Below, piece by piece: positions 4,829 through 60,391 of a DNA stretch of 64,000 nucleotides (the stretch's first letter is position 1; each line of letters begins with the position of its first letter). A program made the translations under genes and the position numbers. Origin of the DNA: Nocardioides kongjuensis (GTDB lineage Bacteria > Actinomycetota > Actinomycetes > Propionibacteriales > Nocardioidaceae); assembly GCF_013409625.1 (NCBI RefSeq), contig NZ_JACCBF010000001.1, forward strand, positions 124,001-188,000. The letters are read 5' to 3'. Below the pieces are notes generated by a model. The model was not told where the DNA came from, ran no database searches, and worked only from the letters and a program-made list of their open reading frames with translations.

Positions 4829-5760
4829 GACAGCTGCTCCAGGAACTCGAGCAGCAGGTCGTGGACGCGCTCGGGCTGCTCGAGCTGGACGAAGTGGGAG
4901 CCGCGCAGCTCGACGTACGTGCTCTGCTTGCCGGTCTCGGCGAGCCGTCGGGAGGCGCTGGCCATGTCGCGGGCACCGGCCAGGACGTCCCACGTCGCGG
5001 AGACGAACATGGTGGGCACGTTGATCTGGCTCAGCCGCACGCGTGGGTGCCTCGAGGTGCTGATCGCGAGGTGGGCGTACCAGTCGACCGGGGTCGTGGC
5101 GAACTCCTGCAGGCCGATCGCGGCCGCCTCCGGGTCGGCCACCGGGAACATGAACCCGGTCCGGCCCAGCAGCCGCACCGTGCTCGCGTTGATCGGGAGG
5201 TGCCGGACCAGCGGGTTCACCGCCCAGCCGGCGTATTGCGCGACCCGGCAGGCGTTGACCGTCACCGCGCGGGCGACCAGTCGCGGCAGGTGCAGTGGCC
5301 CGAGCATGGTGGCGAAGGTGTCGCCGGGGACGCCGCACATCGCGAAGATCCCGCGGACCCGCTCCGGGTGCCGGTAGGTCAGCTCGAAGGCGGTGTTGAC
5401 GCCCATCGACCAGCCCATCAGCACGGCGCTGTCGATGCCGAAGTGGTCCATGACGGACAGTCCGTCCTGGACGAAGTGCTCGATCTCGACGTGCTTGGGG
5501 TCGGCCGGCCGTTCCGAGCCGCCGACACCGCGGTGGTTCCACGACACCACGCGTACGCCGCAGTCGGGCTCGAGCAGCCGCGGCCACAGGTAGGGGTTGG
5601 TGCCCAGCCCGTTGCAGAGCACGACGGTGGGCCCGTCGATCTCGCCGTCGGGGTCGTTGGTCCAGGCGCGGACGTGGGTCCCGTCGTCGGACAGGATGTC
5701 GCGGAAGGCGATCGACGCGGACCGGACGCGCTGTCCGGGCTGGGGAGCGGAGGTCGACAT
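4825..5760 (-). CDS. alpha/beta hydrolase
   Basis: 311 residues. Alpha/beta-hydrolase fold with the oxyanion region VVLCNGLGTN, the strand-turn motif VVSWNHRGVGGS and the nucleophile elbow GWSMG (catalytic Ser). The acid and histidine are expected near the C-terminus, where GSHFVQLEQPERV supplies the His. The family hydrolyses esters, lactones or related bonds; no specific substrate can be named. It is the first gene of a two-gene minus-strand unit with the sugar dehydrogenase, whose GTG overlaps its stop. The ATG at 5760 begins a short polar segment typical of cytosolic members. Confidence 0.85.
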   Translation of the reverse strand: MSTSAPQPGQRVRSASIAFRDILSDDGTHVRAWTNDPDGEIDGPTVVLCNGLGTNPYLWPRLLEPDCGVRVVSWNHRGVGGSERPADPKHVEIEHFVQDGLSVMDHFGIDSAVLMGWSMGVNTAFELTYRHPERVRGIFAMCGVPGDTFATMLGPLHLPRLVARAVTVNACRVAQYAGWAVNPLVRHLPINASTVRLLGRTGFMFPVADPEAAAIGLQEFATTPVDWYAHLAISTSRHPRVRLSQINVPTMFVSATWDVLAGARDMASASRRLAETGKQSTYVELRGSHFVQLEQPERVHDLLLEFLEQLS

Positions 5761-5801
5761 GGCGTCGATTCTGCCGGACCCGGCCCGGATCGGCGGGATG
5801 C

Positions 5802-6020
5802 TCAGGCGTGCAGCGAGACGGAGCCCTCGACGACAGGGCCACGGCGGGCGTCGGCGCGAGCGGCGAGGAAGGCCTCGACGTCCTCACGCTCGGCGCGGCG
5901 CTGGGTGCACGCGGTGAGCGCGACCATGGCGTTGCGGCGGGCCCGCTGCTGGAGGGCGACGGACCAGGTGTGGGCGATGCGGGTCACGGGCTGGGTGATC
6001 GAGGTGGCAGGCAGTGACAT
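5802..6020 (-). CDS. small basic protein of unknown function
   Basis: 72 residues. It begins MSLPATSITQPVTRIAHTWS and is arginine- and alanine-rich, with a likely amphipathic helix in the middle (QQRARRNAMVALTACTQRRAERED). It has no signal peptide or membrane segment, and no family is recognised. It stands alone between the hydrolase and the EamA gene on the same strand. Codon use matches the neighbours and the reading frame is clean, so it is probably real. Confidence 0.5.
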   Translation of the reverse strand: MSLPATSITQPVTRIAHTWSVALQQRARRNAMVALTACTQRRAEREDVEAFLAARADARRGPVVEGSVSLHA

Positions 6021-43049: not shown

Positions 43050-44279
43050 ATGACCACCGACGGTTCCCCGGCCGCTGCCCCCGAACCCGCCCCGCTCGCC
43101 CCTCCCGAGCCCGTCATCCAGCTGACGGCACCGGAGGCGCCGGCGCCGGTCGTGGAGACCCAGGCGCCCAAGATGGCGCCGCAGGTCGAGGCCGCGATGG
43201 TGCCCGAGCTCGACGCGAAGGTCGACAACTTCATCACCGCGCTGACCTCCACCAAGGCGGGCAGCCCGGAGTTCGCCGCGCAGGCCGAGAACGTGCGCAC
43301 CATGGGCGACGCCGACATCCGCAAGGCGGCAGAGACGTCCAACCGGATGCTCGACAAGCCGGTCAACGCGCTCAAGACCGGCGGCATCGCGCAGGGCTCC
43401 AACGTCGGCAAGACGTTGCTGGAGCTGCGCCGCACGGTCGAGGACCTCGACCCGGGCCAGGCCACCGGCGTGAAGAAGTGGTGGGACAAGCTGCCCTTCA
43501 ACGACAAGATCGAGGACTACTTCCGCAAGTACCAGTCCTCGCAGAGCCAGCTCAACGGGATCCTCCACTCGCTGCGCAGCGGGCAGGACGAGCTGACCCG
43601 CGACAACGTCGCGCTCAACCTGGAGAAGACCAACCTCTGGGGCGTGATGGGCCGGCTCAACCAGTACATCTACGTCGCCGAGAAGCTCGACGCGCGGCTG
43701 TCGGCCAAGATCGCCGAGCTCGAGCTGAGCGACCCCGAGACGGCGAAGACGCTGTCGCAGGACGTTCTGTTCTACGTGCGCCAGAAGCACCAGGACCTGC
43801 TCACGCAGCTCGCGGTGTCGATCCAGGCGTACCTCGCGATCGACATCATCATCAAGAACAACATCGAGCTCATCAAGGGCGTCGACCGGGCGACCACGAC
43901 GACCATCTCCGCCCTGCGGACGGCGGTCATCGTCGCGCAGGCGCTGAGCAACCAGAAGCTGGTGCTCGACCAGATCACGGCGCTCAACACCACGACGTCC
44001 ACGATGATCCAGCGCACCTCGGAGATGCTCAAGGAGAACTCCGCGGCGATCCAGGAGCAGGCGGCGTCCTCGACGATCGGGATCGAGCAGCTGCAGGCCG
44101 CGTTCGCCAACATCTACGCGACGATGGACTCGATCGACGAGTTCAAGCTCAAGGCGCTCGACAACATGTCGACCACGATCGGCGTCCTCGAGAACGAGGT
44201 GCAGAAGTCGAAGGCCTACCTCGAGCGCGTCCAGCAGCACGACGCCCGCAACGCCGCCGGCACGCTGGATCTGGGCTAG
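43050..44279 (+). CDS. TelA-family toxic anion resistance-like protein
   Basis: 409 residues. A proline- and alanine-rich N-terminus (about 1-50) is followed by the long alpha-helical TelA domain: MGDADIRKAAETSNRMLDKP, GQDELTRDNVALNLEKTNLWG and TTTISALRTAVIVAQAL-type helices, with TSTMIQRTSEMLKENSAAIQEQA near the end. TelA proteins are associated with tellurite and other stress resistance, and their biochemical function is unclear. First gene of the cluster; 33 bases to the next start. Its grouping with AAA, vWA, PP2C and kinase genes matches the company TelA keeps in Ter-type systems. Confidence 0.9.
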   Translation: MTTDGSPAAAPEPAPLAPPEPVIQLTAPEAPAPVVETQAPKMAPQVEAAMVPELDAKVDNFITALTSTKAGSPEFAAQAENVRTMGDADIRKAAETSNRMLDKPVNALKTGGIAQGSNVGKTLLELRRTVEDLDPGQATGVKKWWDKLPFNDKIEDYFRKYQSSQSQLNGILHSLRSGQDELTRDNVALNLEKTNLWGVMGRLNQYIYVAEKLDARLSAKIAELELSDPETAKTLSQDVLFYVRQKHQDLLTQLAVSIQAYLAIDIIIKNNIELIKGVDRATTTTISALRTAVIVAQALSNQKLVLDQITALNTTTSTMIQRTSEMLKENSAAIQEQAASSTIGIEQLQAAFANIYATMDSIDEFKLKALDNMSTTIGVLENEVQKSKAYLERVQQHDARNAAGTLDLG

Positions 44280-44312
44280 GCCGGAGAGTACAGGGGACAG
44301 GACAGATTTCGG

Positions 44313-44828
44313 GTGGGGCTGAAGTCGTGGTGGCGCCGGTCTCGGAGCGCCACGGAGCAGCCGGCGTACGTCGTACCGCCGGCGCCGACCGAGCAGGACA
44401 TCCGGGCTGCGCTCAACCAGGTGGCCGCGATGCTCACCGAGAACAACGCGCCGCCGGTGGTCGTCTCGCGCGTGCAGCGGATCGCGCGCACGATCAACCA
44501 GACGCTGCCGCGCCTGAGCCAGCTCGGGCTCGGCAGCGAGGAGAGCTACTCGGTCGTCGCGACGGCGACCGACTACCTCCCTGAGGCGCTGCAGTCCTAC
44601 CTCCGGCTGCCCCGCGACTGGGCCGACACCCGGCCGATCGACGGCCCGAAGACCGCGCTGCTGGTGCTCATCGAGGCGCTCGAGCTGCTCGGCGTGACGA
44701 TGGACCAGATCCTCGACGCCGCCAACCGCGCCGACGCGCAGGCGCTCATCGCCCACAGCCGCTTCCTCGACGCCAAGTTCGGCCACTCCTCCTCGGGCGG
44801 CCCCGACCTCACCCTGGGAACCCCATGA
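44313..44828 (+). CDS. unknown protein between TelA and AAA ATPase
   Basis: 171 residues from GTG 44313. A basic N-terminus (GLKSWWRRSRS) is followed by mostly helical sequence with TEQDIRAALNQVAAMLTENN, VVSRVQRIARTINQTLPRLSQ, LPEALQSYLRLP and ALLVLIEALELLGVTMDQ. It has no signal or membrane segment. No family is recognised with certainty; the helical pattern resembles partners of TelA of the XpaC type, which is inference. The next ATG overlaps its stop by 4 bases. Confidence 0.7.
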   Translation: MGLKSWWRRSRSATEQPAYVVPPAPTEQDIRAALNQVAAMLTENNAPPVVVSRVQRIARTINQTLPRLSQLGLGSEESYSVVATATDYLPEALQSYLRLPRDWADTRPIDGPKTALLVLIEALELLGVTMDQILDAANRADAQALIAHSRFLDAKFGHSSSGGPDLTLGTP

Positions 44829-46450
44829 CGACGCTCACCGAAGCCCTCGACGCCCTCGTCGCCGCGGCCCGCGCGGCCGGGCTCGACGAGGCGGCCGCCC
44901 GCGCCGAGGGCGAGGCGGTCGCCGCGACCGTCTCCGAGCGCTCCCGCGGCGCCTTCGTCGACTGGTGCGCGCAGACCGGGCGCGAGCGCTCCGCCGAGGA
45001 GCACATGCTCGCCGCCAAGCGAGGCAACCGCTTCCGCGCCGGCCCGACCCCGCTGATGGCCCAGCTGCTGCTGGAGAAGTCCGCCGCCTCGGCCGACTAC
45101 GCCGGCGCCCTGGCCGACGTCGCCCTCGCCGGCTCGGCGCTCGGCGAGCCCGGTCCCGACGCGGTCGGCGCCGCCACCACGGTCACGACCGCCCAGCTCG
45201 GTGGGGGAGCGACCGGCCTGACCCCGTCCGCGAGCGCCCCCGGCGCCTTCGACCTGCCCACCCGGCAGCCCGTCCCGGGCCTGGGCGACCAGGTGCTCGA
45301 CCAGGTACGCCGCGTGGGCGAGCAGGTGCGACGCCAGCTCGGTGCGCTCAACGACGCAGCCCCGCCGCTGCCGAGCCCCACGCTCACCTCGGACGCGCCG
45401 ACGCCCGTGGACGCGTCGCAGCCCGCGGACGGCGTACAGACCCAGGCGGCGCAGCCGGAGACCCCGCCGGCCGAGGAGCCGAAGCCCGAGGAGCCCACGA
45501 AGACGGTCGAGGAGCTGCTCGCCGAGCTCGACGGCCTGATCGGCCTGGCCAACGTCAAGGGCGAGATCCACCGCCAGGCAGCGGTGCTGCGGGTCGAGGG
45601 CCTGCGCAAGAAGGCCGGCCTGGAGAGCCCGACGATCACCCGGCACCTCGTCTTCAACGGCAACCCCGGCACCGGCAAGACCACGGTCGCCCGCCTGGTC
45701 GCCGGGATCTACCGCGCGCTCGGCCTGCTCACCAAGGGCCAGCTGGTCGAGGTGGACCGCTCCGAGCTGGTGGCCGGATACCTCGGCCAGACCGCCGCCA
45801 AGACCGCCGAGGTGGTGAAGTCCGCCGAGGGCGGCGTGCTGTTCATCGACGAGGCCTACTCCCTCTCCGGCGACCAGTACGGCAAGGAAGCGATCGACAC
45901 CCTGGTCAAGGAGATGGAGGACAAGCGCGAGGACCTCGTGGTCATCGTCGCCGGCTACCCGCTCCCCATGGCCATCTTCATCTCCGAGAACCCGGGCCTG
46001 GAGAGCCGGTTCCGGACCACGATCGACTTCGCCGACTACACCGACGACGAGCTGGCCGCGATCTTCGAGTCGATGGTCAAGGGCGCCGACTACGACGCCG
46101 GCGAGCCGGTGCTGGCGCGGCTGCGCGAGATCCTGGGCGCGGCCGAGCGCGGGCCGTCGTTCGGCAACGCGCGGTTCGTGCGCAACCTGATGGAGGCCGC
46201 GATCGGACGCCACGCCTGGCGCCTGCGCGACGTCGCCGAGCCCACGCTCGAGCAGCTGCGCGCCCTCGAGCCCGAGGACCTCGTGGTCGACCCGAACGAC
46301 GAGGCCCCTGCCGAACCCGCGGCCGAGGGCGAGGTCGTCGCGCCCGCCGACGCTCCGCCCGCCGAGCCGGTCGACCCGTTCGGCGACGACGCCACGGTCG
46401 CCCGCAAGCCGAAGGACCCCCAGGCCGAGACCCCCGAGGAGGAGTCGTGA
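44825..46450 (+). CDS. AAA+ ATPase of the CbxX/CfqX (SpoVK-like) type
   Basis: 541 residues. The N-terminal about 190 residues are Ala-rich and helical, then a Pro/Ala/Glu linker (about 180-230). The single AAA+ domain has Walker A GNPGTGKTT (279-287), Walker B VLFIDEAYSL (about 338-347), a sensor region VVIVAGYPLPM and arginine finger in GLESRFRTTIDFADYT. CbxX-type proteins remodel protein complexes (Rubisco activation in autotrophs) and in other bacteria are linked to secretion or signalling. In this setting it may act on the kinase, TelA or vWA protein. The acidic tail ends PEEES. Confidence 0.88.
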   Translation: MTTLTEALDALVAAARAAGLDEAAARAEGEAVAATVSERSRGAFVDWCAQTGRERSAEEHMLAAKRGNRFRAGPTPLMAQLLLEKSAASADYAGALADVALAGSALGEPGPDAVGAATTVTTAQLGGGATGLTPSASAPGAFDLPTRQPVPGLGDQVLDQVRRVGEQVRRQLGALNDAAPPLPSPTLTSDAPTPVDASQPADGVQTQAAQPETPPAEEPKPEEPTKTVEELLAELDGLIGLANVKGEIHRQAAVLRVEGLRKKAGLESPTITRHLVFNGNPGTGKTTVARLVAGIYRALGLLTKGQLVEVDRSELVAGYLGQTAAKTAEVVKSAEGGVLFIDEAYSLSGDQYGKEAIDTLVKEMEDKREDLVVIVAGYPLPMAIFISENPGLESRFRTTIDFADYTDDELAAIFESMVKGADYDAGEPVLARLREILGAAERGPSFGNARFVRNLMEAAIGRHAWRLRDVAEPTLEQLRALEPEDLVVDPNDEAPAEPAAEGEVVAPADAPPAEPVDPFGDDATVARKPKDPQAETPEEES

Positions 46451-47712
46451 GCCAGACCGCCACCCCCGCGGCCGCCCCGCCGCCCGCCGCCGCACCCGTG
46501 CCGGCTGCGGCGGCGCCCGCCGTCGCGGGCCAGCCCGCGCCGTCGTACGTCGACACGCCGGCCCTCCTCAACCGCTGGCAGCTGATCGGCATGAGCGTGG
46601 CTGTCGTGTTCGGCATCGTCAGCGCGCTCGTGCAGTTCGTCGGCTGGCAGTCCGACGGGCGCGCTGCCGACGACACCGAGCAGCTGCTGCGGGTGCAGGA
46701 GGTCAAGACCTCGCTGCTGCGCGCCGACGCGCTCGCGACCAACGCCTTCCTCAAGGGCGGCCTCGAGGACCCCGCCCAACGCAAGGAGTACGACGCCGCG
46801 ATCGACGGCGTGCTCCAGGACATCGCCGACGCGGCCGAGGCCCAGCCTGCCGACCGCAAGGCGCTCGCGGCGCTCAACGTCGAGGTCACCGACTACACCA
46901 CCGGTGTCGCGCAGGGGCGCGACAACAACCGGCAGAACTTCCCGATCGGAGCGGAGTACCTCAACACGGCCAGCACCGAGCTGCGCGCGTCCGCCCTGCC
47001 GATCCTGGACGAGCTGATCAAGGCGAACCAGCAGCGCGCCGAGGACGCCATGAACGGTCAGCACCCGATCTGGCTGCTCCTCTTCGGTGTCGTGATCCTG
47101 GTGGCGCTGGTGTGGCTCAACCGCGAGCTCGCCCGGCACTTCCGACGGCGGATCAACAAGGGCCTCGCCGTCGCCGCTGTCATCGTCCTCGCGGTCACCC
47201 TCGTGACGGTGGCCGGCGCCTGGATCCGGGACAGCTCCAACGACAGCCTGCGCGACGGCGAGTTCGCGACCGCGGTCCACGAGGCCAACGCCCGCACCGC
47301 AGGCAACGACGCGAAGGCGTTCGAGAGCCTGCGGCTGATCAAGCGAGGCTCGGGCGCGATCAACGAGCCCAGGTGGGAGCTCGCCGCGAAGGCCGTGACT
47401 TCGTCAGGCACCCGCGAGTCGGGCGCCTGGGACGCCTACACCAAGGTGCACGAGGAGATCGTCAAGCTCGACGACGCCGGCGGTTGGGACAAGGCCCGCC
47501 AGCTGGCGATCGAGCAGAGTGGCAAGGCCTTCGAGCCGTTCGACACCGGGACGCGCGCGGCCGTCGAGAAGAACGGCACCACCGCGACCGACGACCTGCG
47601 CAGCGGCCGCTGGTTCGCCCTTCTGATGAGCGGGCTGACCCTGCTCCTCGGAGTGGCCGCCGCGCTGTCCGTGGCCCGAGGTATCGGCGAACGACGGAGG
47701 GAGTTCTCCTGA
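46447..47712 (+). CDS. GlnX-like four-helix transmembrane sensor protein
   Basis: 421 residues from GTG 46447, overlapping the previous stop by 4 bases. A Pro/Ala-rich cytoplasmic head (1-43) is followed by TM1 (about 46-66), an extracellular helical domain (67-205), TM2 (about 207-225), a short basic loop (RHFRRRINKG), TM3 (238-260), a second extracellular helical domain (261-388) and TM4 (about 390-410). This double four-helix-bundle ectodomain layout and the position before a GlnH-like lipoprotein and PknG-like kinase fit GlnX, which in mycobacteria relays ligand binding by GlnH to PknG. The identification rests on context and topology. Confidence 0.75.
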   Translation: MSQTATPAAAPPPAAAPVPAAAAPAVAGQPAPSYVDTPALLNRWQLIGMSVAVVFGIVSALVQFVGWQSDGRAADDTEQLLRVQEVKTSLLRADALATNAFLKGGLEDPAQRKEYDAAIDGVLQDIADAAEAQPADRKALAALNVEVTDYTTGVAQGRDNNRQNFPIGAEYLNTASTELRASALPILDELIKANQQRAEDAMNGQHPIWLLLFGVVILVALVWLNRELARHFRRRINKGLAVAAVIVLAVTLVTVAGAWIRDSSNDSLRDGEFATAVHEANARTAGNDAKAFESLRLIKRGSGAINEPRWELAAKAVTSSGTRESGAWDAYTKVHEEIVKLDDAGGWDKARQLAIEQSGKAFEPFDTGTRAAVEKNGTTATDDLRSGRWFALLMSGLTLLLGVAAALSVARGIGERRREFS

Positions 47713-48635
47713 TGAGGATTCGAGTCCTGGCGGCGACGTTCGCCGCGACGGCGGCTCTCCTGGCCGGCTGCGGCTACGACGCGACGCCGCTGCCGAAGCC
47801 GGAGGAGGCGGCGTCGTCGCCGACGCAGGCCGCGACGCCGGTCGAGTGCGACAACGCCACGCAGTCCTACGCGCCCAGCAACGACAAGGGCGCGGCTCTC
47901 AAGCAGCTGATCAACAAGGGGCGGCTGGTCGTCGGGGTGTCGGGTGACACCTACAAGATGGGGTTCACCGATCCGACAGACGGCGAGCTCAAGGGCTTCG
48001 ACATCGCGTTCGCGCAGGAGATCGCCAAGGCGCTCGGGGTCGACCTCGAGCTCCGCGTCATCCTCGCCTCCGACCGGATCACGATGCTCGATGAGGGCAA
48101 GATCGACATGGTGGCGCGCAACATGACGGTCAACTGCGATCGCTGGACGCAGGTCGCCTTCTCCTCCGTCTACTACAACGCCACCCAGAAGGTCCTGGTC
48201 GGCAGCGACGAGGCCGACAAGTACACCGGTCCGGCGAGCCTGGCCGGCAAGCGGGTCTGCGCCCCGACGGCCACGACGAGCGTCGCCAACATCAAGAAGA
48301 TCGAGCCCGACGTGATCGCGGTCGAGGCCGCCAACCACACCGGCTGCCTGATCAAGTTCCAAAACAGCGAGGTCGACGCCATCACCGGCGACGACACCGT
48401 CCTCGCGGGACTGGCCGCCCAGGATCCCTACACCGCTGTTCCGAAGCAGGAGAAGCTGACCGACGAGCCGTACGGCCTGGCGTTCAACAAGGACGACGTT
48501 GCTCTCGTGAGGTTCGCCAACTCCGTGCTCGACCAGATGCGCGCCGACGGCCGCTGGACCGGGATCTACGACGAGTGGCTCAAGCCCACCCTCAAGGTCG
48601 ACGCCACGCCACCCGCCCCCGCCTACGGCCGGTGA
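47712..48635 (+). CDS. GlnH-like amino-acid-binding lipoprotein (SBP family 3)
   Basis: 307 residues. Lipoprotein signal with LLAGC (Cys20). The solute-binding fold has GRLVVGVSGDTYKMGFTD, GFDIAFAQEIAKALGV, KIDMVARNMTVNCDRW and LAGKRVCAPTATTSVANI, typical of polar amino acid binding proteins. No ABC permease or ATPase lies nearby, so it is a sensor rather than a transport component. In mycobacteria the equivalent protein binds aspartate/glutamate and controls PknG. Start ATG overlaps the GlnX stop by one base; the next GTG overlaps its stop by 4. Confidence 0.88.
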   Translation: MRIRVLAATFAATAALLAGCGYDATPLPKPEEAASSPTQAATPVECDNATQSYAPSNDKGAALKQLINKGRLVVGVSGDTYKMGFTDPTDGELKGFDIAFAQEIAKALGVDLELRVILASDRITMLDEGKIDMVARNMTVNCDRWTQVAFSSVYYNATQKVLVGSDEADKYTGPASLAGKRVCAPTATTSVANIKKIEPDVIAVEAANHTGCLIKFQNSEVDAITGDDTVLAGLAAQDPYTAVPKQEKLTDEPYGLAFNKDDVALVRFANSVLDQMRADGRWTGIYDEWLKPTLKVDATPPAPAYGR

Positions 48636-49762
48636 GCGTGCAGGCCACCATGACCACCACGGCGCCCGTCGCCCCCGGCAAGCTGGGGGACGCGCTGGAG
48701 CCTGCCGCAATCCAGACCTACCTGGGCGAGCTCGACACCTGGTTGCGCGTACGACGCTCCGAGCTCGACGAGCTCGACCGAGCCGCCCTGGCCGTGGGTC
48801 GTGGGGGAGAGCTGGCGGGCGACATGTCGTTGGCGCTGGCGCTGTGGAAGGCGACGTCCGACCGTTACCAGCTGGTCTTCGCGACCTGGGACGGCGGGCG
48901 GGTGCTCCAGCAGGAGCGCGAGCGGATCTCGGCACTGATCTGGGGCCGGCTCGACGGAGCGACCGAGCTGCCCGGTGGGCTGGCGGTGTCGCTGCCCGAG
49001 GCCGGGCGGCTGTGCGACGCACTGACCGGTCAGCTGCGCAGCCGGCTGGCGCTGGTGCCGGGTGCCGACGAGCAGGCGGCGCGGATCCGGGAGCTGCGGG
49101 CGCAGCTGGAGCGGATCCGCGACCAGGTGGGGCTCGAGCCGGCGCTGACCCGCGACGCGGCCGTCAACCGGCTGGCCGAGCTGATGTCGCGGCTGGAGGG
49201 GATCACCGCGAAGGCCGAGCGCGGCGGCGACGCCGGGGGGATGCTCGGTCCGCTGGAGGTCGAGGCGACCACGTTCGAGCGCGACCTCATCGTCGGCAAC
49301 GCCCGGCGCCGTGACGCCCGCGACCAGGTGATCTCCGCGCGCGAGCTGCGCACCGACCTCGAGGCGCGGGAGGCCGCGCTGCAGAAGCTGGCCGAGACCT
49401 GTGTGGCGACGGTCGACCCCGCGCCGAGGTACGCCGTCCCCGACGTCGACCTGCTCGGCCCGGTCCCGGTCACGCCCGACGCGATCGGGCCGTACCTCGA
49501 ACGCCTCGACCGCGTCTCGCAGGCGCTCGAGGTCGCCCAGCACGCCTATGCGGCAGCACTCGACGAGCACACCCAGCTGGTCGCCCTGCTCGACGCGTAC
49601 GTCGCCAAGGCGCGCGCGTCCGCGGTCGCCGACCACCCCGACCTCGTCGCGAGCGAGAAGTCCGCCCGCGACCTCCTCGAGCGCCGCCCGACCCCGATGG
49701 CGGTCGCGAAGCAGCTCGTCACGACGTACCAGACCTGGCTGATCAAGGAGACGAGCACATGA
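48632..49762 (+). CDS. coiled-coil protein of unknown function in the PknG cluster
   Basis: 376 residues from GTG 48632. Soluble and mostly helical with probable coiled-coil stretches (ARIRELRAQLERIRDQVGL, NRLAELMSRLEGITAKAERGG, ISARELRTDLEAREAALQKLAE). There is no signal peptide and no recognised domain. It is locked into the cluster by 4-bp overlaps at both ends. A scaffold or adaptor role between the GlnX/GlnH sensor and PknG is possible but unproven. Confidence 0.75.
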   Translation: MSVQATMTTTAPVAPGKLGDALEPAAIQTYLGELDTWLRVRRSELDELDRAALAVGRGGELAGDMSLALALWKATSDRYQLVFATWDGGRVLQQERERISALIWGRLDGATELPGGLAVSLPEAGRLCDALTGQLRSRLALVPGADEQAARIRELRAQLERIRDQVGLEPALTRDAAVNRLAELMSRLEGITAKAERGGDAGGMLGPLEVEATTFERDLIVGNARRRDARDQVISARELRTDLEAREAALQKLAETCVATVDPAPRYAVPDVDLLGPVPVTPDAIGPYLERLDRVSQALEVAQHAYAAALDEHTQLVALLDAYVAKARASAVADHPDLVASEKSARDLLERRPTPMAVAKQLVTTYQTWLIKETST

Positions 49763-52188
49763 GCGCAGGCGCCTGCACCCAACCCGGTTGCACGGGCAAC
49801 ATCGTCGACGGCTACTGCGACGTGTGCGGCATGCCGGGGGCCTCGACCGGCTCGACCGCCGTGTCGTCGACGCCCGCCGCCGCCACGCCCATCGGGGACT
49901 CCGGCACGGTCAAGGCCCCGATCGCCGCAGCCGTGGCGGGCAACCCGGCCAGCGTCGCGGCGTCCACCTGCCAGCAGCCCGGCTGCACCGGCACCATCCT
50001 CGACGGCTACTGCGACGTCTGCGGCTCGCCCGCGGTCCCGGGCGCGAAGGTCGCGGAGGCGACCGCGCTGGCCGAGTCCCAGCCGCTCTCCGGACGCGAG
50101 GGCACCTCCGCCACCGCGGCCAGCCGGGTCCAGTCCGCGGCCATCGGCTCGAAGCGTGCCGGCGCGACGGGAAGCACGTCCACCCGACGCACGCGCACCG
50201 GCTCGCAGCGGATGCGTGCCGCGCGCATCGGCGCCGGGCTGACCGTCGTACCTCCCGCGCCGCCGGTCGACGCAGCCAAGGCGATCATGGCCAACCCGCA
50301 GGTGCCCGAGGACAAGCGCAGCTGCGCCAAGTGCGGCAACGCCGTCGGCCGCAGCATCGACGGAGCGCCCGGACGCAGCGAGGGCTTCTGCCCCAACTGC
50401 GGCCAGCAGTTCTCGTTCACGCCGAAGCTGAAGCAGGGCGACCTCGTCGCCGGCCAGTACGAGGTCGCGGGTGCGCTCGCCCACGGTGGCCTCGGGTGGA
50501 TCTACCTCGCCCGCGACCGCAACGTCTCCAACAGGTGGGTCGTGCTCAAGGGCCTGCTCAACTCCGGCGACCCCGACGCGCTCGCCGCGGCGATCGCCGA
50601 GCAGCAGTTCCTCGCCCAGGTCGAGCACCCGCTGATCGTCGAGATCTACAACTTCGTCACGCACGAGGGTGCGGGCTACATCGTGATGGAGTACGTCGGC
50701 GGCAAGTCGCTCAAGCAGATCCTCAAGCAGCGCATGGTCGCCAACAACGGCGCCTACGACCCGCTGCCGGTCGACCAGGCCTTGGCCTACATCCTCGAGC
50801 TGCTGCCGGCGTTCCAGTACCTCCACGACCTCGGCCTGGTCTACTGCGACTTCAAGCCCGACAACATGATCCAGGTCGGCGACGCGATGAAGCTGATCGA
50901 CCTCGGCGGCGTGCGACGCATCGACGACGAGGAGTCCGCGATCTACGGCACCGTCGGCTACCAGGCGCCGGAGGTGGCCGAGGTCGGGCCGTCGGTCGCG
51001 TCCGACATCTACACGATCGGCCGCACGCTCGTGGTGCTGTGCATGGAGTTCCGCGGCTACCAGGGCACCTACCTGCACAGCCTGCCGCCGGTCGACACGA
51101 CACCGCTGTTCCAGGAGTACGACTCGCTCTACCAGCTGATCGCCAAGTGCTGCGCGCCCGACCCCGCCGACCGGTTCGCCTCGGTCGACGAGATGCGCAC
51201 CCAGGTGCTGGGCGTGCTGCGCGAGGTGGTGGCCCGCACGCGGCAGGGCACGGCGACCACCTCGGCCGCATCCGTGCTCTTCGAGTCGCCCGCGACCGCC
51301 CGCCCGATCACCGAGTGGAGCCAGCTGCCGGACCTGCGCACCGACACCACCGACCCGCAGTACGGCTGGCTCAGCACGATCGGCGACGACGACCCGAAGC
51401 AGCGGCTCAAGGACCTCGAGTCCGCGCCGGAGGACACCGCGGAGGTGTGGCTGGCCCGCGCCCACGCGGCGCTCGCGCTGGGCGACCCGGTGCTGGCCCG
51501 GAACCACGCGCAGAGGCTGCTCACCGACGACCCGTGGGAGTGGCGGGCACTGTGGATCGAGGGGCTCGCCTCGGTGCAGGCCGGCGACTGGGAGACCGCG
51601 AAGGCGTCGTTCAACGCCGTCTACCAGCAGGTCCCCGGTGAGCTCGCGCCCAAGCTGGCGCTGGCGTTCGCCTGCGAGCGGGGTGGCCTGCCCGAGGTGG
51701 CCGAGGGCCTCTACCTCGTGTGCGCGTCGACCGACGCGGCCTACGTCCCTCCGGCGGCATTCGGGATGGCCCGGGTCCGTGCCGACCGGCACGACGTCCC
51801 CGCTGCCGTGGCCGCGCTCGACCTGGTGCCGACGACCAGCCGGGGCTACACGGAGAGCCGCCAGCAGCGGGCCGAGGTGCTGCTGTCGGGCAGCGCGCAG
51901 GACATCACCGTGCTCGACCAGGCGATGCGCACCATCGACTCCTCGAGCGTCGACCAGGCCACCCGGCAGCGGTTCACGGTGCGGATCCTCAACGAGGCGC
52001 TGCCCGTGGTCTCGGCCGGCAAGGTGCCCGCGGGCGCGCGGATCGGGGCCGTCGAGGCGACCGAGGCCGGCGTGCGCGACGGGATCGAGAACGCCCTGCG
52101 GCTGCTCGCCCGCGACGCCGTCGACCTCAAGGAGCGGGTCACCCTGGTCAACCAGGCCAACGCCGTCCGGAACTGGAGCCTCACGTGA
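49759..52188 (+). CDS. pknG: PknG-like Ser/Thr protein kinase with zinc ribbons and TPR region
   Basis: 809 residues. Two near-identical N-terminal zinc-ribbon units (CTQPGCTGNIVDGYCDVCG from Cys6 and CQQPGCTGTILDGYCDVCG from Cys71) precede the PknG-type rubredoxin-like pair CAKC (189-192) and CPNC (211-214). The kinase domain (about 234-500) has Lys264 (VVLK), the catalytic loop YCDFKPDNM (Asp364, Lys366, Asn369) and DLG (Asp381) in place of DFG, as in PknG. The C-terminal 300 residues are TPR-like helices (AEVWLARAHAALALGDPVLA and similar). PknG controls central nitrogen and carbon flux by phosphorylating small FHA proteins (GarA/OdhI). The two extra N-terminal ribbons are not a feature of the mycobacterial protein. 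Confidence 0.92.
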   Translation: MSAGACTQPGCTGNIVDGYCDVCGMPGASTGSTAVSSTPAAATPIGDSGTVKAPIAAAVAGNPASVAASTCQQPGCTGTILDGYCDVCGSPAVPGAKVAEATALAESQPLSGREGTSATAASRVQSAAIGSKRAGATGSTSTRRTRTGSQRMRAARIGAGLTVVPPAPPVDAAKAIMANPQVPEDKRSCAKCGNAVGRSIDGAPGRSEGFCPNCGQQFSFTPKLKQGDLVAGQYEVAGALAHGGLGWIYLARDRNVSNRWVVLKGLLNSGDPDALAAAIAEQQFLAQVEHPLIVEIYNFVTHEGAGYIVMEYVGGKSLKQILKQRMVANNGAYDPLPVDQALAYILELLPAFQYLHDLGLVYCDFKPDNMIQVGDAMKLIDLGGVRRIDDEESAIYGTVGYQAPEVAEVGPSVASDIYTIGRTLVVLCMEFRGYQGTYLHSLPPVDTTPLFQEYDSLYQLIAKCCAPDPADRFASVDEMRTQVLGVLREVVARTRQGTATTSAASVLFESPATARPITEWSQLPDLRTDTTDPQYGWLSTIGDDDPKQRLKDLESAPEDTAEVWLARAHAALALGDPVLARNHAQRLLTDDPWEWRALWIEGLASVQAGDWETAKASFNAVYQQVPGELAPKLALAFACERGGLPEVAEGLYLVCASTDAAYVPPAAFGMARVRADRHDVPAAVAALDLVPTTSRGYTESRQQRAEVLLSGSAQDITVLDQAMRTIDSSSVDQATRQRFTVRILNEALPVVSAGKVPAGARIGAVEATEAGVRDGIENALRLLARDAVDLKERVTLVNQANAVRNWSLT

Positions 52189-53372
52189 ACTGCCCCTCCT
52201 GCCAGGCAGCGCTGGCTCCCGGTGCCCGCTTCTGCGAGAACTGCGGTGCGCAGGTCGGTACGCCGGCCGCCGCCCCCGTTCCCGCCGCAGCGGCTGCGGT
52301 GGACCACCCGCTCGGGGACGCCCCGATCAGCGCCCCCACCCGCAAGCCGGCGGCCGCGCTGCCCGACCCGCCGGCCCCGGCCGGCCGGCGCCCCTGCACC
52401 GAGTGCGGGGGAGAGGTCGGCCCCGACCTCTACTGCCTCGAGTGCGGCACCAAGGCCCCCAGCGAGCGCGATCACTTCCAGGAGCAGCCGGCCCCCTGGG
52501 TCGCCGGCGTGTGCGACAAGGCGATCGGCAAGAACCGCAACGAGGACGCGATGGCGCTGCTGGCCGGCGCGCAGCCCGGTGGTCAGCCGGGCTCACGGGC
52601 GGTGCTGATCGTGATGGACGGGGTCTCGAACTCGATCGACTCCGACGTCGCGTCGCTGGCCGGAGCGCGGGCGGCTCGCGAGGTGCTGCGGATGCCGCTG
52701 CCGGCGGGGATGGGTACGCCGGAGAGCCGCGACGCCGCCGTACGCAAGGTCTTCACCGATGCCGCGGCCGCCGCCAACACCGCGATCGTGGCCGTCACCG
52801 ACCCCGACTCGCCCAACCCCGCGTCGGCGACCTTCACGACCGCCGTCCTCGAAGGCCGGCGGATCACGTGGGCCAACATCGGCGACTCGCGCTCGTACTG
52901 GCTGCCCGACGACGGCACCCCCGTCCAGCTCACCGTCGACGACTCCGTCGCCCAGGCCCAGATCGCCTCCGGCGTGGCCCGTGAGGTCGCCGAGACCGGA
53001 CCGCAGGCGCACGCCATCACCAAGTGGCTCGGCCGCGACTCGGAGGACCAGGTGCCCACCGTCGGCTCGCTCGAGGTCGACCGGAGCGGCTGGCTGCTGG
53101 CGTGCTCCGACGGCCTGTGGAATTACGCCTCCGAGCCGGAGGCGCTGGCCGCGCAGGTCCGAGCCGCCGCCACCAGTGACCCGCTGTCCCTCGCGCTCGC
53201 GCTGGTCGCGTTCGCGAACGGCGCCGGCGGGCACGACAACATCACCGCCGCGGTGGCCCGGGTCGACCTGACCCCGCCGCCCCCGCCGCCCCCGCCGCCC
53301 CCGCCGCCGCCACCGGCGGTCGGGCAGAATGACCAGACGCCGACCCCAGGAGGAGAGCCGAGCGATGGCTGA
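52185..53372 (+). CDS. PP2C-family protein phosphatase with two zinc ribbons and poly-proline tail
   Basis: 395 residues from GTG 52185. Zinc ribbons at Cys3/6/17/20 and Cys71/74/84/87 precede a PP2C domain (about 105-365) with GKNRNEDAMAL, VLIVMDGVSNS (Asp145), WANIGDSRSYWL, LLACSDGLWNY and GGHDNITAAV, which are the metal-binding and catalytic motifs. It ends in fourteen consecutive prolines and a short tail. It probably reverses phosphorylation by the PknG-like kinase encoded immediately upstream, with a 4-bp overlap. The vWA gene start lies inside its last codons. Confidence 0.9.
   Translation: MNCPSCQAALAPGARFCENCGAQVGTPAAAPVPAAAAAVDHPLGDAPISAPTRKPAAALPDPPAPAGRRPCTECGGEVGPDLYCLECGTKAPSERDHFQEQPAPWVAGVCDKAIGKNRNEDAMALLAGAQPGGQPGSRAVLIVMDGVSNSIDSDVASLAGARAAREVLRMPLPAGMGTPESRDAAVRKVFTDAAAAANTAIVAVTDPDSPNPASATFTTAVLEGRRITWANIGDSRSYWLPDDGTPVQLTVDDSVAQAQIASGVAREVAETGPQAHAITKWLGRDSEDQVPTVGSLEVDRSGWLLACSDGLWNYASEPEALAAQVRAAATSDPLSLALALVAFANGAGGHDNITAAVARVDLTPPPPPPPPPPPPPPAVGQNDQTPTPGGEPSDG
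53274..53315 (+). repeat. 14-codon proline microsatellite in the PP2C gene
   Basis: A run of CCG/CCC codons in a CCGCCGCCC nine-base pattern encodes 14 prolines. It is prone to slippage by three or nine bases, so its length may vary between strains. It ends 50 bases before the vWA start. Confidence 0.85.
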
Positions 53373-54654
53373 GTTCAGCGCCGCCGTCTACCAGAACGAG
53401 TTCCTGCCCGACGGCGGGACCGACGTCAACGCGATCGTGACGATCACCTGCAAGGGCGCCGGCACCGCCGGTCAGTCCGGAGCGGGCAGCGCGGGCGAGA
53501 TCATCATCGTCGACACGTCCGGCTCGATGGGCCCGGCGACGATGGCCGCCGCCAAGGAGGGCGCCCAGGCCGCGCTCGCCGAGATCGTCGACGGCACCTA
53601 CTTCGCCGTGATCGCCGGCGCCGACCGTGCGATGCTCGCCTACCCCCAGGTCTCCAGCGGACCGGGCATGGTCCCCATGGATGCGCGCACCCGCCACGAG
53701 GCGTCGCTCGCGATCGACCGCTTCGTGGGCAGCGGCGGTACGGCGATCAGCACCTGGCTCGACCTCGCCGGCCAGCTCTTCTCCTCGGTCAGCGCGGTCA
53801 CCCAGCGCCACGTCCTTCTGCTCACCGACGGTGAGAACCGCGAGCGTCCCGGCCGCCTCGACGACGCGATCAACCGCGCCACCGGCTACTTCCAGGCCGA
53901 CTGCCGCGGTGCCGGCACCGACTGGCAGGTCGCCGAGATCCGCCGGATCGCGCAGGCCCTGCTCGGCACCGTCGACATCATCCCGAGCCCGGCCGAGATG
54001 AAGGCCCAGTTCGAGGAGATCATGCGCAACGCCATGGCCCGCGGTGTCGCCGACGCGTCGCTGCGGGTGTGGACGCCGCAGGGCGCCGAGGTGCTGTTCG
54101 TGCGCCAGGTGTCGCCGACCGTCGAGGACCTGACCAGCCGTCGTACGCCGGTCAACCCCCTCACCGGCGACTACCCGACCGGCGCGTGGGCCGACGAGTC
54201 CCGCGACTACCACGTCGCGGTCCGGGTGCCGGCCAAGGCGATCGGCCAGGAGCAGCTCGCCGCCCGCGTCCAGCTCGCGATCGGCAGCGACGTCGTCGCC
54301 CAGGGACTGGTCAAGGCGACCTGGTCCAACAACTCCGAGCTGACCACCCGGATCGACCAGCAAGTCGCCCACTACACCGGCCAGGCCGAGCTCGCCCAAG
54401 CGATCCAGGAGGGCCTCGCGGCCAAGGCCGCCGGCGACGAGGCGACCGCGACCACCAAGCTCGGTCGTGCCGTGCAGCTCGCCGCCGAGACCGGCAACGA
54501 CGAGGCCACCTCCAAGCTGCGCAAGGTCGTCGACGTCGACAACGAGGAGACCGGCACCGTCCGTCTCAAGCGCTCGGTCGAGAAGGCCGACGAGATGGCC
54601 CTCGACACCGCGTCCACCAAGACCACGCGGATCCGCAAGGAGCCGACAGCATGA
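53365..54654 (+). CDS. vWA domain protein (TerY-like)
   Basis: 429 residues from ATG 53365, with AGGAGGAG upstream; overlaps the PP2C stop by 8 bases. The vWA MIDAS motif DTSGSMG (Asp50, Ser52, Ser54) follows a short beta lead-in; the GGTAISTWLDLAG segment supplies the second MIDAS Thr and LLTDGENRERP the third. The C-terminal half is a mixed beta domain and a charged helical tail with many Thr (ATATTKLGRAVQLAAETGND, TKTTRIRKEPTA). vWA proteins next to a PP2C phosphatase and a kinase form the TerY-P triad described in Ter stress systems. The Thr-rich tail could be a kinase target, which is inference. Confidence 0.88.
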   Translation: MAEFSAAVYQNEFLPDGGTDVNAIVTITCKGAGTAGQSGAGSAGEIIIVDTSGSMGPATMAAAKEGAQAALAEIVDGTYFAVIAGADRAMLAYPQVSSGPGMVPMDARTRHEASLAIDRFVGSGGTAISTWLDLAGQLFSSVSAVTQRHVLLLTDGENRERPGRLDDAINRATGYFQADCRGAGTDWQVAEIRRIAQALLGTVDIIPSPAEMKAQFEEIMRNAMARGVADASLRVWTPQGAEVLFVRQVSPTVEDLTSRRTPVNPLTGDYPTGAWADESRDYHVAVRVPAKAIGQEQLAARVQLAIGSDVVAQGLVKATWSNNSELTTRIDQQVAHYTGQAELAQAIQEGLAAKAAGDEATATTKLGRAVQLAAETGNDEATSKLRKVVDVDNEETGTVRLKRSVEKADEMALDTASTKTTRIRKEPTA

Positions 54655-55433
54655 GCACCTGCCCGTCCGGGCACGAGTCGACGTCGGACGACTACTGCGA
54701 CGTCTGCGGCCTGCCGATCCCGGCGGGCGGTGGTACGCCGGCCCCGGACGGGGCGGGGGCGCCGGCCGCGGTCGAGGAGCCGACCCCTCCGGCGGCTCCT
54801 GCCGCTCCCTCGACCGCCGAGTGTCCCAACTGCCAGGCGGCCAACCCGCCGAACGCGCTGTTCTGCGAGGCCTGCGGCTACGACTTCACCACCGGCTCGA
54901 TGCCGCGCCCGGTCACGCCCTCCGTGCTCGACCTCGGCGTGCCCACGCCGGCCGCCGGCACCGACGACGCCGGCACGGCAGACGCCAGGAAGCCCGCCAC
55001 CCCGGACGCCTCGATCGCGCCGCCGCTCGCCGACGCGTGGGTGGCCGAGGTCTGGATCGACCCCGACTGGTACGCCGACCAGGAGTCGACCGACCCGCTC
55101 CCGTCCGCGGGCGTGCCGACCGTCGTACCCCTCAAGACGACGTCGATCCTCGTCGGCCGCACGTCCCGCAGCCGAGGGATCCATCCCGACATCGACCTCG
55201 CCACCGACAACGGCATCAGCCGGCGACACTGCCAGCTCACCACCGACGGCAGCCGCTGGTGGGTCGAGGACCTCGGCTCCTCCAACGGCACCTACCTCGG
55301 CTCGGCCGTCGGCCCCCTGCCCAAGGACCCGGTGCCGGCGGGGGAGAAGCGCGAGATCGCCCCGGACGCACGGGTCTACCTCGGCGCCTGGACCCGGATC
55401 GTGATCCGGCGGGCCCAGCCCGGCGAGGTGTGA
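54651..55433 (+). CDS. FHA domain protein with two zinc ribbons
   Basis: 260 residues, ATG overlapping the previous stop by 4 bases. Zinc ribbons: Cys4/His8/Cys16/Cys19 (CDVCGLP unit like those of the kinase) and Cys58/61/72/75. A Pro/Ala linker leads to the FHA domain (about 162-255) with the phosphothreonine-binding residues Gly169-Arg170, Ser190-Arg-Arg-His193 and Ser211-Asn212-Gly213. It probably reads phospho-Thr made by the kinase. It is not a close GarA/OdhI copy: that family lacks zinc ribbons, so whether it plays the GarA part is open. Last gene of the operon. Confidence 0.9.
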   Translation: MSTCPSGHESTSDDYCDVCGLPIPAGGGTPAPDGAGAPAAVEEPTPPAAPAAPSTAECPNCQAANPPNALFCEACGYDFTTGSMPRPVTPSVLDLGVPTPAAGTDDAGTADARKPATPDASIAPPLADAWVAEVWIDPDWYADQESTDPLPSAGVPTVVPLKTTSILVGRTSRSRGIHPDIDLATDNGISRRHCQLTTDGSRWWVEDLGSSNGTYLGSAVGPLPKDPVPAGEKREIAPDARVYLGAWTRIVIRRAQPGEV

Positions 55434-58114: not shown

Positions 58115-59221
58115 ATGACCGACTCCTCCGCTGCAGCCCCCGTCACCACCGGCCAGGTCGCCCTGGGCGTCATCCCCGGTGACGGGATCGGCCCCGAGGT
58201 GACCGCCGAGGCCCTCAAGGTCCTCGAGGTCGCGGCGCCGGCCGACCTGAAGTTCGCGCAGACCCAGTACGACCTCGGTGCCGAGCGCTACCTGCGCACC
58301 GGCGAGGTGCTGCCCGACAGCGTGCTCGAGGAGATCCGCAACCAGGACGCCCTGCTGCTGGGCGCGGTCGGCGGCAAGCCCAACGACCCGAACCTGCCCC
58401 CGGGCATCCTCGAGCGCGGCCTGCTGCTCAAGCTGCGCTTCGAGCTCGACCACTACGTCAACCTGCGCCCCTCGCGCATCTACCCGGGCGCTGCTCGACT
58501 TGGCTCCCCGCTGTCCGACGAGGTGCTGGGCAAGGGCGAGGTCGACTTCGTGGTCGTCCGCGAGGGCACCGAGGGCCCCTACACCGGCAACGGCGGCGCC
58601 CTGCGCGTCGGTACGCCGGCCGAGGTCGCCACCGAGGTGTCGGTCAACACGGCCTACGGCGTCGAGCGGGTCATCCGCGACGCCTTCGAGCGCGCCCGAA
58701 AGCGGCCCCGCAAGAAGCTCACCCTCGTCCACAAGACCAACGTGCTCGTCCACGCGGGCCAGGTCTGGTGGCGGCTGTTCCAGCAGGTGGCCGAGGAGTA
58801 CCCGGACGTCACCACCGACTACAGCCACATCGACGCGGTGATGATCTACCTGACCACCGACCCGCAGCGCTTCGACGTCATCGTCACCGACAACCTGTTC
58901 GGCGACATCGTCACCGACCTCGCCGCCGCGATCAGCGGAGGCATCGGCCTGGCCGCGTCCGGCAACGTGAACCCGGATCGCACCTCGCCCTCCATGTTCG
59001 AGCCCGTGCACGGCTCGGCACCCGACATCGCGGGGCAGCTGATCGCCGACCCCACCGCCGCGATCCTCTCCGGCGCGCTCCTGCTCGACCACCTCGGCCA
59101 CCCCGAGGCGGCGGCCCGCATCGAGGCGGCGGTGCTCGCCGACCTCGAGGCGCGCGAGCCGGGCCAGCAGCGTCGTACGCCCGAGGTGGGCGACGCGATC
59201 GCGGCGCGAGTAGCCGGCTGA
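58115..59221 (+). CDS. leuB: 3-isopropylmalate dehydrogenase
   Basis: 368 residues. It oxidises and decarboxylates 3-isopropylmalate to 2-ketoisocaproate in leucine synthesis, using NAD+ and Mg2+. Motifs: [13 protein letters not shown], the substrate loop [33 protein letters not shown], and the metal/NAD region [25 protein letters not shown] with [16 protein letters not shown] 58115 has no clear Shine-Dalgarno. ilvE follows 75 bases downstream. Confidence 0.96.
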
Positions 59222-59296
59222 GTCCGCGCCGGGGCACATCGCCCCAGACGCGGGCAGACGGCCCACTCCCGACCCGCGTTAACGAGGACTAACCTG

Positions 59297-60391
59297 ATGA
59301 CCATGCAGATCACCACCACGCTCTCTGCGACCCCGACCGACGACGCCCGCCTGGCCGAGATCCTGGCCAACCCGGGCTTCGGGGTGCACTTCTCCGACCA
59401 CATGTTCACCGTCGAGTGGACGCCGGAGCAGGGCTGGTACGACGCCCGCATCACGCCGTACGGCCCGATCACGCTCGACCCCGCGGCCGCCGTCCTGCAC
59501 TACGCGCAGGAGACGTTCGAGGGGATGAAGGCCTACCGCCACCACGGTGCCGACGGGGACTCGCTGTGGCTGTTCCGGCCCGAGGCCAACGCCGAGCGGA
59601 TGAAGCGCTCCAGCCACCGCCTCGCGCTGCCGGTGCTCGAGGTGCCGGACTTCATCCAGGCCGTCGAGGAGCTGGTGAAGGTCGACGCGCGGTGGGTGCC
59701 GGGGAACCCCGACGGCGGCGAGAAGAGCCTCTACCTGCGCCCGTTCATGTTCGCCTCGGAGAAGTTCCTCGGCGTGCGCCCGGCCCAGCACGTCACCTTC
59801 ATGGTGATCGCGAGCCCGGCCGGTGCCTACTTCAAGGGCGGCATCAAGCCGGTCACCCTGTGGCTGACCGAGGAGTACACCCGCGCCGGCCGTGGCGGCA
59901 TGGGCGCGGCCAAGACCGGCGGCAACTACGCCTCGTCGCTGGTCGCGCAGCAGGAGGCCTACGCCCAGGGCTGCGACCAGGTCGTCTTCCTCGACGCCCA
60001 GGAGGGCAGGTACGTCGAGGAGCTCGGCGGGATGAACATGTACTTCGTCTTCGACGACGGCTCGATCGTCACCCCGGAGACCGGCACCATCCTCGAGGGC
60101 ATCACCCGCTCCTCGATCATCGAGCTGGCCGGCAAGATGGGCCACCAGGTCACCGAGCGCAAGTTCGGCATCGACGAGTGGCGCGAGGGCGTCGCCAGCG
60201 GCCGGATCACCGAGATCTTCGCCTGCGGCACCGCCGCCGTGGTCACCCCCGTCGGCTCGCTGAAGTACACCGGCGGCGAGACCCCGGCACCCGCCAGCCA
60301 GGACCTGACCATGCGGATCCGCGAGGCGCTCGTCGGCGTCCAGCTCGGCCGAGCCGAGGACACCTTCGGCTGGATGCGCCGCATCGACTGA
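59297..60391 (+). CDS. ilvE: branched-chain amino acid aminotransferase
   Basis: 364 residues. It performs the last step of valine, leucine and isoleucine synthesis using PLP and glutamate. Fold-type IV motifs: GMKAYRHH, YLRPFMFASEKFLGV, the PLP Lys206 in MGAAKTGGNYASS, and EELGGMNMYFVFDDG with ITRSSIIELA. GAGGA lies eight bases before ATG 59297. A second ATG (59303), seven bases after TAACCT, could serve a leaderless transcript, so this gene may have its own promoter besides read-through from leuB. Confidence 0.96.
   Translation: MTMQITTTLSATPTDDARLAEILANPGFGVHFSDHMFTVEWTPEQGWYDARITPYGPITLDPAAAVLHYAQETFEGMKAYRHHGADGDSLWLFRPEANAERMKRSSHRLALPVLEVPDFIQAVEELVKVDARWVPGNPDGGEKSLYLRPFMFASEKFLGVRPAQHVTFMVIASPAGAYFKGGIKPVTLWLTEEYTRAGRGGMGAAKTGGNYASSLVAQQEAYAQGCDQVVFLDAQEGRYVEELGGMNMYFVFDDGSIVTPETGTILEGITRSSIIELAGKMGHQVTERKFGIDEWREGVASGRITEIFACGTAAVVTPVGSLKYTGGETPAPASQDLTMRIREALVGVQLGRAEDTFGWMRRID

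Follow-up and report, generated by a model that had tools for sequence, protein, structure and literature searches.

The 64,000-nucleotide window analysed here (Nocardioides kongjuensis, contig NZ_JACCBF010000001.1) contains at 43050..55433 a run of ten open reading frames (ORFs) on the + strand that appears to be an extended operon built around the protein kinase PknG, and one more general than a reading of the single window could tell. In order, the ten genes encode a TelA family protein, an unannotated protein (g2), a CbxX-type AAA+ ATPase, GlnX-like and GlnH-like proteins, a second unannotated protein (g6), PknG, a PP2C phosphatase, a vWA protein with a VWA_3_C domain and an FHA protein (Table 1). 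Pfam matches were obtained for TelA, AAA with AAA_lid_6, solute-binding protein family 3, PknG (rubredoxin, kinase and TPR), PP2C, VWA with VWA_3_C, and FHA. The closest matches to the PknG protein are those of Nocardioides sp. SLBN-35 (97 %) and a Pimelobacter simplex strain (95 %).

Table 1. Features of the PknG locus in the 64,000-nucleotide window
Feature	Position	Strand	Description	Basis
telA	43050..44279	+	TelA family, 409 aa; first gene, extension module	PF05816, E 1e-91
g2	44313..44828	+	171 aa, mostly helical (predicted); putative TelA partner	No Pfam match above cut-off
AAA	44825..46450	+	CbxX/SpoVK/EccA-type AAA+ ATPase, 541 aa, long N-terminal part	PF00004, PF17866
glnX	46447..47712	+	Membrane sensor, four predicted transmembrane segments	NF058618, hydropathy
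glnH	47712..48635	+	Solute-binding lipoprotein	SBP_bac_3, E 5e-30
g6	48632..49762	+	All-helical (predicted), 376 aa, directly upstream of pknG; proposed adaptor	
pknG	49759..52188	+	Ser/Thr kinase, 809 aa	PF16919, PF00069, PF16918
PP2C	52185..53372	+	Phosphatase, two N-terminal zinc-ribbon motifs	PF13672, DZR
vWA	53365..54654	+	VWA_3_C domain, Thr-rich C-terminal tail, 429 residues	PF13768, PF18571 (E 6e-20)
vWA tail	54589..54624	+	Residues 409-420 (DEMALDTASTKT), proposed PknG phospho-acceptor	
FHA	54651..55433	+	Two N-terminal zinc-ribbon motifs; proposed phospho-threonine reader	PF00498, DZR

Only telA and g2 are separated, by 33 bases. The other junctions overlap by 4 bases (g2-AAA, AAA-glnX, glnH-g6, g6-pknG, pknG-PP2C and vWA-FHA), by 1 base (glnX-glnH) or by 8 bases (PP2C-vWA, assuming that vWA starts at 53365; a start at 53329 is also possible), so that the coordinates agree with the original prediction of ten genes in one direction with eight of nine junctions overlapping by 1, 4 or 8 bases. 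Overlaps of 1-8 bases occur at only one of the 15 other same-strand neighbour pairs of the window, as called by a crude gene caller. A promoter and terminator scan gave no promoter-like site (0.2 expected) and one terminator-like site (2.9 expected), and is uninformative because the genome is so GC-rich.

The conservation of the unit was followed in relatives by using the PknG protein to scan GTDB species genomes and taking the best 80 of 223 confirmed places, 57 of which have enough flanking sequence for the whole unit to be counted. All ten genes are present in the same order and on the same strand in 47 of these 57 loci (L numbers below denote individual loci), and the two ORFs at 44313 and 48632, g2 and g6, belong to the unit, as had been proposed. 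The 47 full loci come mostly from Nocardioides and from genomes that we take to be of Intrasporangiaceae type, with one from Kineosporia (L072). Seven of the remaining ten are without glnH, and by tblastn their glnX is missing or weak; the other three (L043, L051 and L076) lack more. Among the seven, GlnX is confirmed by profile in L065 and L068 and gives weak tblastn matches in L047 and L070, and it was not shown in L059, L060 or L071. When 13 glnH-less loci were examined, a GlnX relative with four transmembrane segments was confirmed by profile in seven, and the GlnH profile found no match among the ORFs tested within the locus. Overlapping junctions were also counted in relatives, over 48 complete loci before filtering for flank: g6-pknG (44/47), AAA-glnX (41/48), PP2C-vWA (41/48), pknG-PP2C (35/48), glnX-glnH (34/47), vWA-FHA (34/45), glnH-g6 (30/48) and g2-AAA (24/48), with telA-g2 overlapping in none (0/48). 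We note that PP2C and vWA lie some 4 to 5 kb further apart in L047, L048 and L050.

The unit is made of two modules, a core of glnX-glnH-g6-pknG-PP2C-vWA-FHA that is found in other families, and a telA-g2-AAA extension that was added in Nocardioides and some relatives. In a wider sample of 40 further PknG loci, hand-picked for family spread (we infer taxon labels such as Streptomyces-like for f3 and Mycobacteriales-like for f4, and count matches under the score threshold as absent), all seven core genes occur in 22; four of the 22 also carry telA-g2-AAA, and these three genes are absent from the available stretch of the other 18. Eight loci, five of them f4, have glnX-glnH-pknG only, and five have pknG and vWA only, four of these with g6; the g6 profile was iterated on these wider loci and could have drifted, yet its matches sit directly upstream of pknG. 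The last five are L092 (pknG alone), L103 (without vWA and g6), L113 (without glnX and glnH) and L108 and L116 (both truncated by the end of a contig). The linkage survives rearrangement, since glnX-glnH lies after FHA rather than before g6 in four f90 loci (L102, L104, L106 and L107) and on the opposite strand in L096, which is from outside the class. Small paralogous g6-pknG-vWA sets are present in four of the wider loci (L093, L094, L095 and L118), and in L093-L095 vWA ends in a zinc-ribbon-like motif following an LDST[KR]T stretch. A further PknG paralogue lies beside glnH-glnX, partly on the opposite strand, in L112 and L114 (f91), with no PP2C, vWA or FHA detected. Recurrence across genera and families makes the ten-gene arrangement more than chance. 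The original prediction that kinase, phosphatase, FHA reader, vWA protein and AAA ATPase form one linked signalling unit thus holds in relatives, where the genes are linked and not scattered, but its picture of one conserved unit has to be divided, telA-g2-AAA being a separate part of narrower range.

A sample of 345 genomes of the class contains PknG in 118, g6 in 80 and VWA_3_C in 80. PknG is present in 78 of the 80 genomes with VWA_3_C versus 40 of the 265 without (Fisher p ~2e-44), and in 77 of the 80 with g6 versus 41 of the 265 without (p ~3e-42), both tests ignoring shared ancestry. Counts of PknG neighbours were drawn from the best 150 PknG places and are lower bounds: at least 76 of 88 g6 matches lie within 6 kb of PknG (77 with G369, where a weak PknG match is at the same place), and at least 68 of 94 VWA_3_C matches lie within 7 kb, six of the other 26 being near a g6 match. 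In the subset of 17 genomes from the genus, PknG, TelA, g6 and VWA_3_C are all present in eight and all missing from nine. The only VWA_3_C match in the N. kongjuensis genome, which was searched as a single contig of 5.67 Mb (100 % complete), is the operon vWA. All six VWA_3_C loci examined away from PknG contain PP2C-vWA-FHA; a 218-bit match to the PknG profile is present in L191, the contig ends within L189, and the other four (L188, L190, L192 and L193, all f91) have no adjoining PknG match, g6 lying upstream in two of them (L190 and L192). Within the unit, PP2C-vWA-FHA thus holds together most tightly, and it can occur without PknG nearby.

TelA is mostly found elsewhere, as at least nine of its 70 matches in the class sample lie within 12 kb of PknG; N. 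kongjuensis itself has one TelA match only (PF05816, 307.9 bits, profile positions 3-332 of 332). Among 20 TelA loci away from PknG, a g2-like gene is present in 13, adjacent in seven and about one to two kb off in six (that of L133 being weak, at 19 bits), an AAA gene takes the place of g2 in one (L135) and neither is present in six; no PknG core was found in the available stretch of any of the 20. At L135 (8549-11583) telA is followed directly by a CbxX-type AAA gene, with no g2 or PknG in the available stretch. The pairing of TelA with a g2-like neighbour is therefore shared with other actinobacteria (13/20 loci, one weak), whereas here the pair stands in one run with the PknG core and a CbxX-type AAA ATPase.

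The residues expected of active signalling proteins are invariant or nearly so when 60 to 77 homologues per gene are compared. PknG, which carries two extra N-terminal four-Cys motifs ahead of its rubredoxin, kinase and TPR domains, has an intact active site, with the catalytic Lys and Asp and the rubredoxin Cys residues kept in 77/77 and the extra Cys motifs in 75/76 or better. PP2C keeps Asp121 and Asp145 in 76/76 and Asp309 and Asp351 in 75/75, the metal-ion-dependent adhesion site (MIDAS) of vWA is kept in 69/69, the Walker A/B residues of AAA in 65/65, and FHA residues G169, R170, S190, R191, N212 and G213 in 64/64; the lowest values are those of PP2C Arg118 (71/76) and FHA His193 (59/64). 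The AAA protein scores under all three equivalog cut-offs (SpoVK 275.1 bits, cut-off 422.95; CbbX 230.4, 459.25; EccA 213.9, 466.65). A phospho-motif in the AAA C-terminus was considered and ruled out, as it is not conserved. AlphaFold2 models g6 as all-helical (pLDDT 89.7, pTM 0.72) and g2 as mostly helical (pLDDT 82.4, pTM 0.69). Neither has a Pfam match above cut-off, structure searches of both against PDB gave no match at E<=0.001, and the g6 profile had a best E of 0.23 against PDB sequences. Protein searches gave at least 1797 g6 relatives and at least 1163 g2 relatives; among the matches listed those of g6 are mostly named 'hypothetical protein' (with stray labels of DUF3375, tetratricopeptide repeat and SbcCD subunit) and those of g2 are only unnamed, hypothetical or uncharacterised. 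The notion of g2 as an XpaC-type partner of TelA found no Pfam support in 31 members.

The GlnX-GlnH-PknG-GarA/OdhI pathway is a characterised chain (PMC6069109, PMC9769921), and an operon arrangement is described from STRING as widely conserved (PMC6069109). The proposal that the GlnX-like, GlnH-like and PknG proteins belong to this known sensing chain is borne out by Pfam, by the best PDB match of GlnH (M. tuberculosis GlnH, 6h2t, 191 bits) and by the match of GlnX to NCBIfam NF058618 (E 1.1e-67, 229 bits, under the cut-off of 250); pknG lies near glnX and glnH, with g6 between glnH and pknG. The lipobox Cys of GlnH is kept in 60/60 homologues, and the unit contains no ABC transporter genes. 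In M. tuberculosis GlnH, the side chain of the ligand is contacted by R147, T162 and W232, and the amine and carboxyl groups of the ligand by S164, R169 and D250 (PMC6069109). The N. kongjuensis protein has R, N and H at the first three of these positions and T, R and D at the others, while ten Streptomyces-like loci have R, T and Q at 147, 162 and 232, and W232 is found in the five f4 loci and in L117. The ligand is thus likely to be of the amino-acid type, as judged from these residues; aspartate or glutamate as the signal is unproven, because two of the three specificity residues differ and the operons of some relatives have no GlnH.

The C-terminal tail of vWA is a candidate substrate of PknG. 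Its 12-residue window from residue 409, DEMALDTASTKT, ranks 1/418 in conservation (mean 0.979), and within LDTxSTKTxR the residues L413, D414, T415, S417, T418, K419, T420 and R422 are each kept in 68/68; the corresponding sequence is DEMTLETRSTKTVRV in ten Streptomyces-like loci, L082 having Q instead of K. A published test peptide for PknG has the sequence SDEVTVETTSVFRADFL, and the kinase targets GarA Thr21, equivalent to OdhI Thr14 (PMC8546545), with ETTS as a conserved two-threonine motif (PMC12321487). The tail resembles the core of this peptide, DEVTVETTSVF, its Streptomyces-like form being DEMTLETRSTK. When the 11-residue core was used as query, the tail came first of 4623 to 5918 windows in nine of the ten Streptomyces-like loci (in L083 the tail was missed by the gene caller) and first or tied in eight of the 12 other core loci, and in the 64,000-nucleotide window the 11-mer from residue 409 was joint first of 18557. 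The motif [DE]TxS occurs in 20 of 28 tails examined. We regard this likeness as a good lead rather than a demonstration.

While the architecture of the locus is near certain, its mechanism can be proposed with less confidence. The reading that we prefer, with a probability of about 0.45, is that of a phospho-threonine signalling operon around PknG. GlnX, usually together with GlnH, would report an extracellular small molecule, probably of the amino-acid type; PknG, held via its TPR domain and the helical g6, would phosphorylate the vWA tail (LDTASTKT), the FHA protein would bind the phosphorylated tail, and PP2C would remove the phosphate and so reset the switch. The zinc-binding N-termini of PknG, PP2C and FHA may help these three proteins to meet, or may make the circuit sensitive to redox state or metals. 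TelA-g2-AAA, as added in this lineage, could be the output, with ATP-driven remodelling acting on targets bound by TelA. A bolder form, which we think rather doubtful, is that in much of the range of PknG its main substrate is the operon vWA tail, with FHA as reader, PP2C as resetting enzyme and g6 as an obligate adaptor, and that the mycobacterial and corynebacterial control of GarA/OdhI, in which acceptor and FHA reader share one chain, would be the remnant left after gene loss.

Several observations weigh against the preferred signalling scheme. The tail is only second in the 11-mer search in L115 and L120 and is outside the top two in L109 and L110, two unrelated window proteins score equally with it, the 11-residue core was itself picked after the likeness had been seen, and the full 17-residue peptide leaves the tail outside the top eight of the window. 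Moreover, L109-L111 (f91) have Ala in the position that corresponds to the PknG target Thr, and the [DE]TxS motif is missing from the five loci limited to pknG and vWA (L093, L094, L095, L105 and L118). PP2C-vWA-FHA stands without an adjoining PknG match at four of the six VWA_3_C loci away from PknG, and the class-wide co-occurrence takes no account of shared ancestry. Finally, the known PknG substrate GarA is also encoded in the N. kongjuensis genome (C1:1335218; E 7.6e-49, 167 bits, OdhI equivalog cut-off 200).

Of the other explanations, the nearest to the proposed circuit is that the FHA protein is itself the substrate, as GarA/OdhI is, docking on autophosphorylated PknG, becoming modified and acting on a metabolic or envelope target, with vWA as a scaffold only. 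Phosphorylated Thr in the N-terminus of PknG serves to recruit the known FHA substrate of the kinase (PMC8546545), the phospho-threonine-binding residues of the operon FHA protein are invariant, and a conserved segment (AEVWIDPDWY-type) precedes its FHA domain; however, the N-terminal half has no conserved Thr motif in 21 aligned sequences, save for a TTG stretch that follows zinc-ribbon motif two, whereas the vWA tail does have one, and no FHA protein was detected in any of the five loci limited to pknG and vWA. We therefore consider this somewhat unlikely. It is less likely still that the unit tunes central metabolism only, with PknG acting on GarA/OdhI in the mycobacterial manner and the remaining genes serving as accessory regulators of this single pathway. 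The characterised chain (PMC6069109, PMC9769921) and the GarA relative in this genome would favour it, but GarA is not tied to PknG, since of 59 genus genomes 58 have GarA and 20 have PknG, and ETTS occurs in none of the 39 GarA sequences that could be read (41 stretches were examined), 38 of which have a TxTI stretch as a possible counterpart. The N. kongjuensis GarA has an N-terminal zinc-ribbon-like CxxC pair and no ETTS, and a GarA of the genus at L146:1563-2081 has a zinc-ribbon-like motif at its start and TxTI-type stretches in place of ETTS. The idea that loss of ETTS from GarA tracks the presence of PknG was rejected (ETTS in 0/11 with PknG and 0/28 without). OdhI is phosphorylated by several kinases (PMC2784874), and GarA control here therefore need not depend on PknG. 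In the GarA/OdhI switch, too, an FHA domain acts in the PknG pathway, and its acceptor peptide core is like the vWA tail, but here tail and FHA domain are on two proteins and GarA is a separate gene elsewhere in the genome.

The original prediction took TelA, vWA, PP2C and the kinase for the core of a Ter-type stress system, and we have weighed a Ter-type stress or anti-phage role (a TerY-P triad with TelA). The kinds of domain are shared (vWA, PP2C, kinase, zinc ribbons and TelA), vWA, PP2C and kinase adjoin one another as in the triad, and in L136 telA-g2 lies near TerD-like and TerC-like proteins, as read from their sequences with no family search. A TerD-family protein has the defining role in the Ter-dependent stress system, but TerD has no match in the complete N. 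kongjuensis genome (control genomes were positive in 2/14). The triad (PMC11090510) resembles the present unit in its trio of domain types, its zinc ribbons and its phospho-switch logic, but its kinase carries a C-terminal zinc ribbon (or OB fold), whereas the operon kinase is PknG, with rubredoxin, Cys motifs that are N-terminal and a C-terminus formed by PknG_TPR, and it is accompanied by sensor genes and by a VWA_3_C-type vWA with a Thr-rich tail. The absence of telA, g2 and AAA from the available stretch of 18 of 22 core loci also argues against a Ter-type role, as does PADLOC, which matched no specific anti-phage system, the AAA and kinase proteins giving cross-matches through shared domains only. 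A Ter-type function is accordingly very unlikely, and the claim that these genes form a Ter-type core does not stand. The least credible explanation is that unrelated genes have simply been inherited in synteny: 24 of the 47 full loci do keep at least one of five flanking window genes (at 50 % identity and 40 % coverage, some loci being short of flank on one side), but the other 23 keep all ten genes with none of the five, and the core genes recur rearranged and in smaller paralogous sets, the rearranged loci by themselves contradicting this explanation.

Downstream of the operon, LeuB-like and IlvE-like genes (named from sequence) lie at 58115-60391 on the + strand, each with relatives in 26 of the 80 loci. 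A second Ser/Thr kinase-like ORF, identified from its sequence (LGEGGMGIVHLA...), lies at 61711-63390 (+), about 6 kb downstream of the operon, and has a relative in 11 of the 80.

The unit shares with the GlnX-GlnH-PknG operon of Mycobacterium and Corynebacterium (PMC6069109, PMC9769921, PMC8546545) the protein families, the gene order apart from g6, and the catalytic residues. The operon described in the accessible parts of these papers has three genes, whereas here g6, PP2C, vWA and FHA are added, together with telA-g2-AAA in this lineage, and PknG carries a further pair of four-Cys motifs at its N-terminus; in the five Mycobacteriales-like loci no such added gene was detected. We found no paper on the wider PknG unit in the open-access literature, preprints not included, and Fig. 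2B of PMC6069109 may show more genes. PknG has been much studied in mycobacteria and industrial corynebacteria, yet its published operon, so far as these sources describe it, is one of three genes; with the wider unit come a dedicated phosphatase, a reader, an adaptor and a candidate substrate for PknG that can all be tested, and two unannotated protein families, g2 and g6, together with the VWA_3_C domain, gain a likely pathway.

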